A stretch of DNA of 61,111 bases from assembly GCA_029932915.1 (NCBI GenBank), contig JAOZPE010000005.1, forward strand, positions 1-61,111, read 5' to 3'. Source of the DNA: Candidatus Krumholzibacteriia bacterium. GTDB taxonomy: Bacteria > Krumholzibacteriota > Krumholzibacteriia > JAJRXK01. Below are positions 2,171-11,744 of this stretch, piece by piece. The number at the start of each line of letters is the position of its first letter. Within the stretch, counting starts at the first letter, position 1. The notes below the pieces were generated by a model. The model was not told where the DNA came from. It was given only the letters and a program-made list of their open reading frames with translations, and did not search any database. The translations under genes and the position numbers were made by a program.

Positions 2171-3538
2171 ATGCGAGAGGGACATCTCGAGGAAACACTG
2201 CGGCGCATCATCGCCCAGGCCCTCGTGGATCGGGTGAAGGATCCGCGGATCGCCTTCGTGACCATCAACGAAGTGCGGCTCAGCCGGGACAAGACCTCGG
2301 CCCAGATCTTCTACACCGTGCTGGGAAGCGACGAGGAGAGGCGGAAGAGCATGCAGGGCCTTCGCAGCAGCGCCGGGTTCCTGCAGAGCATCATCGGCGA
2401 TTCGCTGCGGTTGAAGACCATTCCCAGGCTCCATTTCCGTTACGACGACAGCCTCGACCGCTCCTTCCGCCTGGAGGAGATCCTCGACGATCTCCATTCC
2501 GGGCCGGAAGGGGAGGCAGAGCGGAGCGAAGAGATGCGTTTCATTCCCTATCCTCCTCCGCCCGATCTGGTCGAGGTCTTCCGCGAGCACCACAGCTTCC
2601 GCCTGACCACCCACGTCAACCCCGACGCGGACGGCATCGGCAGCCTGCTCGGGCTGGGCCTGGCTCTGGAAGCGGCGGGAAAGACGGTGCAGATGGTGCG
2701 GCATGAGGACGGTCCGTCGGCCTTCTCCGTGCTGCCCGGCTACGATCGGGCCGTGCTGCCCGGCGAGCTCCAGGGTGAGGACGAGGTGCTCGTCCTCCTG
2801 GATTGCCACGAGCTCGAACGGATCGGGCCGGCGGCGGATGGATTGACCGGACGGGAGAAGGTGGTGGTGATCGACCACCATCTCACCGGCGACGGCGACA
2901 GTGAGGGAGAGGTCCAGTGGATCGAGCCAGCGGCTGCGGCCAGCGCGTCGATGGTGCACTCGTTGGTGGGAGCGATGGAGGAACTGTCCCTGAGCGGGGA
3001 AGTGGCGAGTTGCCTGTACGCCGGTCTCATCACCGACACCGGGGGTTTCCGCTTCTCCAATACCGACGCGACGACCCTTCACGTGGGCGGGGATCTGGTC
3101 GAGCATGGCGCCGACGCGGCCGCCCTGGCCGAGAGCTTCCTGCATCGCCGCAGTCCGGCGACCCTGCGCTTGCTGGCGCGCGTCCTCGACTCCTTCGACT
3201 ACCGGTTGGGGGGGAAGGTCGTGCTGGCCCGGATGACCCGCGCCATGTGCGAGGAGACCGGCGGCCGCATGGAGGACACCGAGGGCTTCGTGAATTTCGC
3301 CACCTCGGCCGAGGGAGTCGAACTCGTCGCCCTGTTGAAGGAGGTCGACGAGCAGACCTGGCGGGTGAGCCTGCGGGCCAACGATCCCTACGACGTGCAG
3401 AGGGTCGCCGAGACCTTCGGCGGTGGCGGCCATGCCAAGGCGGCCGGCTGCACCCTGCAGGGCCCGGTGGAGGAAGTCGAGGAGAGGATCCTCGAGGCAC
3501 TCAGCCGCGAACTCCAGATGGAGACGGCGGAAGGGTGA
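2171..3538 (+). CDS. rbfA-nrnA: Ribosome-binding factor A fused to NrnA-type DHH/DHHA1 phosphoesterase
   Basis: One uninterrupted 455-residue frame carries two proteins that are normally separate neighbours. Residues 1 to about 112 are RbfA, the 30S maturation factor binding near 16S helix 1 (VKDPRIAFVTINEVRLSRD, then a KH-like fold). After a charged linker (about 112-124), residues 125-455 form a complete NrnA-like nanoRNase/pAp phosphatase: metal motif HVNPDADGIGS at 148-158, VVIDHH with the DHH at 235-237, TDTGGFRFSNT, and the DHHA1 motif GGGGHAKAAG near 417-426. NrnA degrades 2-5 nt RNAs and 3'-phosphoadenosine 5'-phosphate. An internal ATG at 2534, preceded by GGAG at a usable distance, could also give a free NrnA of about 334 residues. 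The start at 2171 follows a weak GAGG. The stop overlaps the GTG of truB. Function of each half is well supported; whether the product stays fused is not known. Confidence 0.93.
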   Translation: MREGHLEETLRRIIAQALVDRVKDPRIAFVTINEVRLSRDKTSAQIFYTVLGSDEERRKSMQGLRSSAGFLQSIIGDSLRLKTIPRLHFRYDDSLDRSFRLEEILDDLHSGPEGEAERSEEMRFIPYPPPPDLVEVFREHHSFRLTTHVNPDADGIGSLLGLGLALEAAGKTVQMVRHEDGPSAFSVLPGYDRAVLPGELQGEDEVLVLLDCHELERIGPAADGLTGREKVVVIDHHLTGDGDSEGEVQWIEPAAAASASMVHSLVGAMEELSLSGEVASCLYAGLITDTGGFRFSNTDATTLHVGGDLVEHGADAAALAESFLHRRSPATLRLLARVLDSFDYRLGGKVVLARMTRAMCEETGGRMEDTEGFVNFATSAEGVELVALLKEVDEQTWRVSLRANDPYDVQRVAETFGGGGHAKAAGCTLQGPVEEVEERILEALSRELQMETAEG

Positions 3539-8211: not shown

Positions 8212-9480
8212 GTGAATCTACCCCCGATGGAGAAGGAAAGCCCGCCGCAGCGCCGCGTCCTCGGCAACGGCGCCGTCCTGTTGAGCCGTTTCACCCCCGG
8301 TGCGCACGGCGTGTCCCTGGGGGTATGGATGAAGACCGGCAGCCGTCACGAGGATGCGGCCCTCGGAGGCATCAGCCATCTGCTCGAGCACATGGTCTTC
8401 AAGGGGACCCGTCGGCGGGGAGCCTTCGAGCTGAGCCGCGACATGGAGGCCCTCGGCGGCAACCTCGACGCCTTCACAACCAAGGAGACCACCGCCTACA
8501 CCCTGCGCGTGCTTCCCGGACAGCTTCCGGCCGCGCTGGAGATCCTGGCCGAGATGCTCGAGGAGTCGACGCATCCGGAGGATCAGCTCATCCTGGAGAA
8601 GGACGTGGTGATCGAGGAGATCCTCTCCAGTGAGGACACGCCGGACGACTTCGTGCACGAACGCTTCATCGAGCACCTCTTCGGAAGCCATCCGCTGAGC
8701 CGTCCCATCCTCGGAACGAAGGAGACGGTGACCGCGATCGGGCGCGACGATCTCATTGCCCACATGGACGCGGTCCACCGCGGGGGCAACGTGGTCTTCG
8801 CCCTGAGCGGGGCGATCACCTCCGGTGAGATCGATGCGGTGGCCCAGGCCTTCCACTTCCCTCCGGGGCGGCCCCCCTTGCCGCCGCCGGTCCCGGCTCC
8901 CCGTCCCGCACCGGGCCACTTCAGCTATCCCCGCGATCTCACCCAGCTCTATCTGGAGATCGGTGTGCCCACCGTCGGGATGGACCACCCCGACCGCTAC
9001 GGCCTGGTCCTGCTGGCGAACCTCCTGGGCGGGGGCATGAGCAGCCGTCTGTTCCAGCGGGTCCGCGAACAGGAGGGGCTCGCCTACAGCGTCTACTCCT
9101 GGGCCGACTTCAACGCCGACACCGGCTCGCTGTGCACCTCGCTGTGCGCGAGTGTGGACAAGGGTCTGCGGGCCCTGGAGGTGGTGGCCGAGGAATACCA
9201 GCGTCTGCGGCGTGGTGAGGTAGGGGAGGAGGAGATCGAGATGAACCGCAACCAGGTGCTCTCGGCGATGATCCTCTCCCTGGAGGGTTCGATGCACCAG
9301 ATGTCGCGTCTGGCCCGCGAGGAGATCTACTTCGGCCGTTTCGTTCCGCTGGAGGAGATGATCCGCAGCCTCTACGAGGTCGACCGCGACGAGCTGGTCC
9401 GCCTGGCCGAGACCTACCTCGATCCCACTCTGCAGACCGTCGTCGGTCACGGTCCGGCCCACGAGCTGGCCTTCGCCTGA
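8212..9480 (+). CDS. M16 family zinc metallopeptidase (mitochondrial-processing-peptidase-like)
   Basis: A 422-residue pitrilysin/M16B protein. The inverted zinc motif HLLEH is at residues 56-60, and the distal glutamate ligand falls in IEEI at residue 136, the normal 76-residue spacing. The second half carries the expected inactive repeat and the Arg/Tyr region (LANLLGGGMSSRLFQRVREQEGLAYSVYSW). Related single-chain bacterial enzymes (YmxG/MlpA, PqqL-like) degrade or process peptides; the substrate is unknown here. The start is GTG at 8212 with GGAGG 5 bases upstream; ATG at 8227 is an alternative. No signal peptide is seen, so a cytoplasmic location is likely. Neighbourhood: directly after pnp, as in Bacillus. 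It converges with the minus-strand gene that follows. Confidence 0.93.
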   Translation: MNLPPMEKESPPQRRVLGNGAVLLSRFTPGAHGVSLGVWMKTGSRHEDAALGGISHLLEHMVFKGTRRRGAFELSRDMEALGGNLDAFTTKETTAYTLRVLPGQLPAALEILAEMLEESTHPEDQLILEKDVVIEEILSSEDTPDDFVHERFIEHLFGSHPLSRPILGTKETVTAIGRDDLIAHMDAVHRGGNVVFALSGAITSGEIDAVAQAFHFPPGRPPLPPPVPAPRPAPGHFSYPRDLTQLYLEIGVPTVGMDHPDRYGLVLLANLLGGGMSSRLFQRVREQEGLAYSVYSWADFNADTGSLCTSLCASVDKGLRALEVVAEEYQRLRRGEVGEEEIEMNRNQVLSAMILSLEGSMHQMSRLAREEIYFGRFVPLEEMIRSLYEVDRDELVRLAETYLDPTLQTVVGHGPAHELAFA

Positions 9481-9535: not shown

Positions 9536-10729
9536 TCAGGCCGGCTGGAAGGCGCCCGTCTCCTCCAACCGCATCAGGCAGGCATCGAAGGCCGCGTCGT
9601 CCAGGGAGAGGCTCACCCGCACGAAGCCCCGTCCTGCCTCTCCGAAGGCCGAGCCCGGTGCCAGGACCACTCCGCTGCGCTCGATGACCTTCGTCACGAA
9701 ACCCAGATCGTCGTCGGCGAAGGCAGGGGGAATCCTTCCCCACAGGAAGATCGTGCCCGGCGAGGGGGGAAGGTCCAGACCCAGGCCCCGCAATCCCTCG
9801 CGGAAGCGAAGCTGTTGACGCCGCAGGCGCGTGCGCTGTTGGCCGAGGAAGGTGTCGTCTCCGGTGAGCGCGGCGAGGGTCGCCTCCTGCGCGGCCAGGA
9901 AGGGTCCGGGACCCCGGTGGCTGGCCAGGATCCGAAGGCGATGGATGCGCTCGGCTCCCCCGGCCAGGAAGGCCACGCCCCATCCCCCCAGGTGGTGGCT
10001 GCAGGTGGGGGTGGAGATCTCCAGGGCACCCTCGCGGGCTCCGGCCAGTTCGAAGATCGACGGCGGCAGGTGCCCCTCGACCAGTGCGAACTCACTCCAG
10101 CGCACGTCGTTGACCAGCAGGATGTCCCGGTCACGGCACAGGGCCAGCAGGCGTCGCAGCTGCGGCAGTTCACAGATCGAACCGGTGGGATCGTGGGGAT
10201 AGGACGACAGGAGGACGCGGGCCGCCGCGAGCGTGTCCTCCTCGATGGAGTCCAGATCGATCACCCCGTCGGGGTTCAGCGGCAGGGCCACTGCCCGGCC
10301 CCTGGCCAGCGCGATCGCCGACAGCCAGGTGGGAGGGCAGGGTGAGGGCACCAGGACGGTGTCGCCCTCCTCGATGAATGCGGACAGGACCAGGTGCAAG
10401 GCGTCCAGCGAACTGGACAGGGGCAGGATCTCCGACTGGGGATCCAGGTGCACGGTGAAGCGTCGCTCGTACCAGTCGCCGACGGCGCGGCGCAACTGGG
10501 GGGTGCCGGCCACCGAGGAGTGCCGGTGGGCGCTGGTGCGCAGGCGGCGCAGCGCGTCGGTGAAGGCGCGGATCACGTGCTCCGGCGGCCGGCCGGTGGG
10601 ACAGCCCAGGCTGAGGTTGAAGACGGGGCTGCCCTCGGCGCGGACCGCCTCGGCTCTCTCGTGGAGGGTCTCGAAGATGAAGGGCTCTCGCAGGATCCGA
10701 TCGAGCTGGTCTTCGCGCATGGCCGCCAT
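9536..10729 (-). CDS. Fold-type I aminotransferase-like protein lacking the PLP lysine
   Basis: The 397-residue product aligns over its whole length with class I/II aminotransferases (AspAT fold). However, most cofactor residues are changed. The Schiff-base lysine of the SK...GWR motif is Cys243 (PTCSHHLGGWGVAF). The phosphate-binding arginine eight residues later is Gly251. The asparagine of NPTG is Asp180 (YPHDPTG). The tyrosine of the DExY motif is Trp211 (NDVRWSEF). The cofactor aspartate (Asp208) and the C-terminal carboxylate-binding arginine (Arg371 in GFVRVSLS) are kept. I checked the codons around 9990-10020 and TGC is unambiguous. This argues for a pseudoenzyme or for altered chemistry, not a frameshift. 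Two adjacent starts exist (10729 and 10720), both with weak ribosome sites. It is divergent from the NodB-like gene. Confidence 0.85.
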   Translation of the reverse strand: MAAMREDQLDRILREPFIFETLHERAEAVRAEGSPVFNLSLGCPTGRPPEHVIRAFTDALRRLRTSAHRHSSVAGTPQLRRAVGDWYERRFTVHLDPQSEILPLSSSLDALHLVLSAFIEEGDTVLVPSPCPPTWLSAIALARGRAVALPLNPDGVIDLDSIEEDTLAAARVLLSSYPHDPTGSICELPQLRRLLALCRDRDILLVNDVRWSEFALVEGHLPPSIFELAGAREGALEISTPTCSHHLGGWGVAFLAGGAERIHRLRILASHRGPGPFLAAQEATLAALTGDDTFLGQQRTRLRRQQLRFREGLRGLGLDLPPSPGTIFLWGRIPPAFADDDLGFVTKVIERSGVVLAPGSAFGEAGRGFVRVSLSLDDAAFDACLMRLEETGAFQPA

Positions 10730-10867: not shown

Positions 10868-10988
10868 AGAAGTCCTGACACTGGTGTTTCCTCGAGGGCG
10901 CCACCTTGGATCGAACGACTCTTCGGCCCCGGTCACGACGACCGCGGCGGACGAATCGGCTGGCGAACGACACCGGTACGAGGCTCCC

Positions 10989-11744
10989 ATGATCTGGTCG
11001 ACCGCTGAACGCGTTGACAAGCGCGGTGCGTCCATTGCTTCCATCGCCATCGCTTGCCCCCGGGTGAGTGAACATCCACGTCTGGCTCTGTCGTGGATCT
11101 CCCGCTCCCGCTTCGAATCCATTCTCGACGGGCTCCTGGAACGGGGCGTTCGCTTCCTCGACCTGGACGACTTCCGGCGGCAGGTCGAGGATCCGTCGGC
11201 CGAGGCTTCCGGGGGCATCCTGTTGACCTTCGAGGACGCCGACGAGAACTTCCTCCACCGGGTGGCTCCGCTTCTCCACGAACGGGAGATCCCCGCCGTG
11301 CTCTTCGTGGCCACTGCCTCGGTGGGCCATGTGGAAGGCCGCAGTTTCGGCCCCTTCCGGCGGGAGACCCCCCAGCTCTCCTGGTCGCAACTGAGGAAAC
11401 TCCGAGCGTGGGGCATCCGCACGCAGTCGGCGGGGCATCACGTCCTCGATCTGCGGAGCGTACCGCCGGAGGTGGCCTTCGGCGACCTCATCCGCTCGCG
11501 CCGTGAACTCGAGCGCCGTCTCTCGGAGGAGGCGGTGGCGCTGAGCTATCCGCATCGTGCCGTCGACGAGGAGATCGCCGACCTGGCCCGGCGGGCGGGC
11601 TTCGCACTGGCCTTCGGAGGGGGGGAGGGCAAGCTCAGCGATCCGCTGATGGACCTGCCCCGGATGGCCCTGCGACCGTCGGACAGTGCCGACGGCGTAC
11701 TCCGCCGCATGGAGAAGCAGAAGGCGCGGAGGGAACAGGCCTGA
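10989..11744 (+). CDS. Divergent polysaccharide-deacetylase-like (NodB/CE4 fold) protein
   Basis: About 251 residues with the NodB layout. Motif 1 appears as LLTFEDADENF at residues 78-88, where canonical enzymes have TFDDG, so the catalytic-base aspartate would be Glu82 and the metal aspartate Asp83. Motif 2 reads TQSAGHHVLDL: the first metal histidine position is Gln146 and the second is His150. A SYPHR segment near 186 matches the usual YPxG motif. CE4 enzymes remove N- or O-acetyl groups from polysaccharides such as peptidoglycan; the changes make activity doubtful. No signal peptide is visible. The start at 10989 follows GAGG at 5 bases. A GTG at 10884 extends the frame by 35 residues without a ribosome site or homology. 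The gene ends convergent with the DUF4388 gene. Confidence 0.7.
   Translation: MIWSTAERVDKRGASIASIAIACPRVSEHPRLALSWISRSRFESILDGLLERGVRFLDLDDFRRQVEDPSAEASGGILLTFEDADENFLHRVAPLLHEREIPAVLFVATASVGHVEGRSFGPFRRETPQLSWSQLRKLRAWGIRTQSAGHHVLDLRSVPPEVAFGDLIRSRRELERRLSEEAVALSYPHRAVDEEIADLARRAGFALAFGGGEGKLSDPLMDLPRMALRPSDSADGVLRRMEKQKARREQA

Follow-up and report, generated by a model that had tools for sequence, protein, structure and literature searches.

The window, that is, the whole stretch of 61,111 nucleotides that was analysed, carries on its minus strand a class I aminotransferase-like gene, which lies between two conserved neighbours:

8212-9480, plus strand: M16 peptidase, a convergent neighbour whose conservation marks the position (profile match and synteny)
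9536-10729, minus strand: putative pseudo-aminotransferase gene, present as a single copy and encoding 397 aa with the AspAT fold
10884-11744, plus strand: polysaccharide deacetylase-like protein, the divergent neighbour conserved in the family (profile match and synteny)

A scan of the locus for promoters and terminators found none, and PADLOC returned no antiphage-system match for the 9536-10729 gene, on which ground an antiphage function was rejected. Elsewhere in the window, a single ORF (2171-3538) combines a Ribosome-binding factor A domain with a DHH/DHHA1 phosphoesterase.

Translation of the reverse complement gives an uninterrupted frame, with no stop over 397 amino acids. Its product, which we call the Cys243 protein, is a full-length relative of the fold-type I aminotransferases, as the first-pass annotation had recognized: residues 35-383 match Aminotran_1_2 (profile search, E 2.9e-35), and the PDB matches are 2x5d, 2dou, BacF (6l1l) and other class I aminotransferases. 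The AlphaFold2 model (28 homologues in the alignment) reaches a mean pLDDT of 90.6, a confidence that is driven by the Lys-bearing relatives in the alignment and is not an independent test that this sequence folds, and the top PDB match of the model is 2x5d (TM 0.88). Based on this model, we infer that the chain still folds in the AspAT manner. The orthologues belong to an AlaA/LL-DAP-aminotransferase-like subgroup of class I. On the NCBIfam LL-diaminopimelate aminotransferase models NF006756 and TIGR03540, the Cys243 protein scores 246 and 241 bits, far below the cut-offs of 507 and 593, and the orthologues (about 404-437 bits) are likewise under these curated cut-offs. The protein contains one lysine against 40 arginines, the lowest lysine fraction among the 31 window genes counted, and its orthologues have 4-22 lysines each.

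Alignment with homologues and inspection of the codons locate the active-site positions as follows:

10520-10522, minus strand: codon 70, CAC (His), at the partner-subunit tyrosine that contacts the PLP phosphate (alignment; role per PMC4094517)
10334-10336, minus strand: codon 132 (Pro), at the tyrosine that stacks on the PLP ring (alignment; role per PMC4094517)
10190-10192, minus strand: codon 180, GAT (Asp), in place of the NPTG asparagine (homologue alignment)
10106-10108, minus strand: codon 208, GAC (Asp), the pyridine-nitrogen aspartate, kept (homologue alignment)
10097-10099, minus strand: codon 211, TGG (Trp), in place of the tyrosine bonded to PLP O3' (alignment; role per AlaA structure, PMC4094517)
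10001-10003, minus strand: codon 243, TGC (Cys), in place of the Schiff-base lysine (Lys in 29/29 homologues)
9977-9979, minus strand: codon 251, GGC (Gly), in place of the PLP-phosphate arginine (homologue alignment)
9617-9619, minus strand: codon 371, CGG (Arg), the substrate-carboxylate arginine, kept (homologue alignment)

All the residues named in the first-pass annotation are confirmed by these data, namely the substitutions Cys243, Gly251, Asp180 (within DPTG) and Trp211 and the retained Asp208 and Arg371, and to them we add further changes at columns that form contacts or lie close to them (H70, S106, L108, P132, S176, T240 and T242); Ser107 is retained. In E. coli AlaA, the phosphate of the cofactor is contacted by Tyr68* (from the other subunit), Ser105, Ser239 and Arg248, the lysine is Lys240, Tyr129 provides the stacking, Tyr210 and Asn179 lie at O3', and Arg378 serves the carboxylate (PMC4094517). 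With equivalent positions placed by motif and family alignment, the four phosphate contacts become His70, Ser107, Thr242 and Gly251, and Lys240, Tyr129, Tyr210, Asn179 and Arg378 become Cys243, Pro132, Trp211, Asp180 and Arg371. Among the columns that are invariant in 16 orthologues, seven of the nine that contact the cofactor have changed, as compared to 29 of the remaining 77 (one-sided Fisher test, p = 0.026), an enrichment that drops to p = 0.11 when the substrate Arg371 and Gly42 are counted as contacts. The exchange of lysine for cysteine has altered all three positions of the codon (AAR to TGC) and is therefore neither one recent mutation nor one base-call error. The possibility that another lysine occupies the Schiff-base position was rejected, because K347, in a C-terminal helix, is the only lysine of the protein and no other can substitute. 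On these residues, the loss of catalysis is well supported. Since the lysine, the phosphate arginine and the ring contacts are gone, cofactor binding is unlikely, and the Cys243 protein most likely neither holds PLP nor transaminates.

A different possibility, towards which the first-pass annotation had pointed by analogy with ColD, is an enzyme that works independently of the lysine, with PLP or PMP held non-covalently and another residue acting as the base. ColD and the E1 3-dehydratases are likewise lysine-less on the AspAT fold, and in ColD a histidine replaces the lysine while cofactor binding is kept (PMC8987622); the retention of Asp208, Ser107 and Arg371 would be compatible with such a scheme. 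In the Cys243 protein, however, the residue is a cysteine and most contacts are changed, including the phosphate arginine, the partner-subunit and stacking tyrosines, and the asparagine and tyrosine at O3', which are contacts that a lysine-free holoenzyme would need even more. Moreover, ColD belongs to the sugar aminotransferase branch, unlike the Cys243 protein. The analogy is thus weak, and with both phosphate and ring contacts lost we regard a ColD-like enzyme as very unlikely.

The gene order infB-rbfA-ribF-rpsO-pnp-M16-AT-deacetylase-DUF4388 is shared with the three remaining family genomes and its M16-AT-DUF4388 core recurs in members of the class, which demonstrates that the 9536-10729 gene is the positional orthologue of a Lys-bearing aminotransferase gene. 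The Schiff-base lysine is kept in 29/29 aligned homologues, among them the orthologues from the three other family genomes, which occupy the equivalent chromosomal position, and the Cys243 protein alone lacks it; seven further loci in this genome that resemble class I aminotransferases all keep it too. A survey of 80 genomes of the phylum at E <= 1e-50 yielded 17 close matches, one of them the window gene itself; the remaining 16 are all Lys-bearing. A loss of lysine at the level of a clade is therefore rejected, and by the criterion that the first-pass annotation had set, Cys243 and Gly251 do not define a clade; the loss is confined to this lineage, which is represented by one genome. A contig search of the genome collection for a nearer relative returned only a 29% Prevotellaceae match.

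The genome is a 98-contig draft with 4% estimated contamination, which could raise the suspicion of an assembly error or a contaminant contig. We consider this highly improbable, as the gene sits inside a long block that is syntenic with the family, its GC by codon position (0.73/0.51/0.87) matches that of neighbouring genes, and the substitutions are many and spread, with no frame errors.

Regarding what the orthologues do, a role as LL-DAP aminotransferase is doubtful: a search of the four family genomes that covered dapA, dapB, DapD and dapF gave no match for dapB or DapD and no dapA over the cut-off in any of them, though dapF is present in all four. The diaminopimelate route of this family of four genomes looks incomplete or unrecognised, and one genome of another family has both dapA and dapB.

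The Cys243 gene has also evolved at an unusual rate. In the LG+G4 tree, its terminal branch measures 1.51 changes per site against 0.27-0.47 in the three family orthologues, which makes it 3-6 times faster than its sisters; a second tree, which gave 3.57 for this branch, is probably saturated, and we relied on the LG+G4 tree instead. The acceleration is specific to this gene, since the branches of this genome for the flanking M16, pnp, ribF, DUF4388 and deacetylase proteins are ordinary (0.4-1.8 times those of the sisters). Of the family-invariant residues, 50/86 are retained and 36/86 are lost, whereas the three orthologues retain 93-96% (leave-one-out).

These last observations are also what would be expected of a dispensable gene that drifts under little or no selection after the loss of catalysis, its frame as yet unbroken by a stop or a frameshift; stops are rare in this GC-rich genome. 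Other data point in the same direction: the genome is smaller than those of its family relatives (2.9 Mb as compared to 3.5-5.8 Mb), invariant Gly/Pro residues are retained no better than under neutrality (17/22), and new prolines at 132, 241, 274 and 276, near the pocket, point to local degeneration. Against decay, we simulated an orthologue decaying neutrally down to the observed identity, which takes about 210-300 further substitutions; such runs acquired 2-5 stops on average and only 0-12% of them were stop-free. The actual gene has accumulated no frameshift and, within the aligned core, only a single gap of 2 codons, and its GC by codon position is unrelaxed. Outside the pocket, replacements have a mean BLOSUM62 of -0.18 to -0.42, much as in comparisons among working orthologues (-0.15 to -0.44). 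The simulated neutral excess divergence yields -0.61 to -0.79 (sd about 0.09), which places the observed replacements about 4-5 sd on the conservative side of neutral ones. For mixed simulations, the measure 'seen in homologues' is inflated by the presence of the starting orthologue in the set, and BLOSUM was used instead. Of the columns that are always hydrophobic, 96/106 (91%) stay so against neutral means of 78-87, a retention that is under that of working orthologues (about 96-100%). None of the close relatives found shares this Lys-less state. The majority of these tests speak for ongoing selection on the protein rather than for neutral decay, and we read it as still constrained, more loosely than an enzyme would be. 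The earlier suggestion of a selected loss is thus partly supported, well as regards the loss of catalysis and by most tests as regards selection; the retention of Gly/Pro does not support the latter. Decay is a serious rival, to which we give a real but lesser chance of being correct.

Based on our results, the explanation that we modestly favour, and do not regard as proved, is a pseudo-aminotransferase that is specific to this lineage and has ceased to bind PLP: a class I aminotransferase present as one copy, and catalytic by its residues in all relatives, would have turned into a pseudoenzyme in this lineage when the Schiff-base lysine, phosphate arginine, partner-subunit and stacking tyrosines and O3' contacts were replaced, its AspAT-type fold being kept under weaker selection. 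Overall, the gene is probably a lone dead enzyme retained for another role, or possibly one in slow decay. For a pseudoenzyme, what work remains would most likely be non-catalytic, and might consist in dimerising with or binding another protein, or in holding a carboxylate ligand by way of Arg371, which is retained. The role of regulator or carrier proposed by the first-pass annotation is possible, and we found nothing that points to it specifically. The more particular idea that the sole copy of a bacterial aminotransferase became, in place and with no active duplicate kept, a regulatory or scaffold protein devoid of cofactor is tentative and, in our judgement, rather unlikely. Pseudoenzymes usually derive from duplicated genes. 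A true pseudoenzyme here would offer a clean natural case of in-place enzyme repurposing, single-copy and open to comparison with the Lys-bearing orthologues that occupy the same locus; decay would instead illustrate for how long a reading frame may escape interruption when the genome is GC-rich, and would caution against annotating the 9536-10729 gene as an aminotransferase.

Among known systems, the closest are the class I AlaA/AlaC and LL-DAP-aminotransferase (DapL-like) enzymes (2x5d, 6l1l BacF, 2dou), with which the Cys243 protein shares fold, length, Asp208, Arg371 and, for its orthologues of this type, gene position. The clear differences are the absent Schiff-base lysine and the replaced phosphate arginine, subunit and stacking tyrosines, and O3' tyrosine and asparagine. 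LCB1/SPTLC1, the inactive subunit of serine palmitoyltransferase, is likewise a fold-type I chain without the PLP lysine (PMC3794620), and in other families dead paralogues act as activators of their partners (PMC5201418). As AspAT-fold chains form dimers that share their active sites (PMC4094517), pairing of the Cys243 protein with an active aminotransferase, in the manner of LCB1-LCB2, can be envisaged as a specific form of the pseudo-aminotransferase reading. LCB1/SPTLC1, however, belongs to the alpha-oxoamine synthase family and has a known active partner, whereas this genome has no close active paralogue, the next class I enzyme being only about 24-31% identical to the Cys243 protein or its orthologue; such a heterodimer is for this reason only a possibility, and an improbable one. 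Finally, yeast Alt2 is likewise a relative of alanine aminotransferase with its activity lost, with the key distinction that Alt2 has every catalytic residue in place and continues to form the Schiff base with PLP (PMC5960717), unlike the Cys243 protein.
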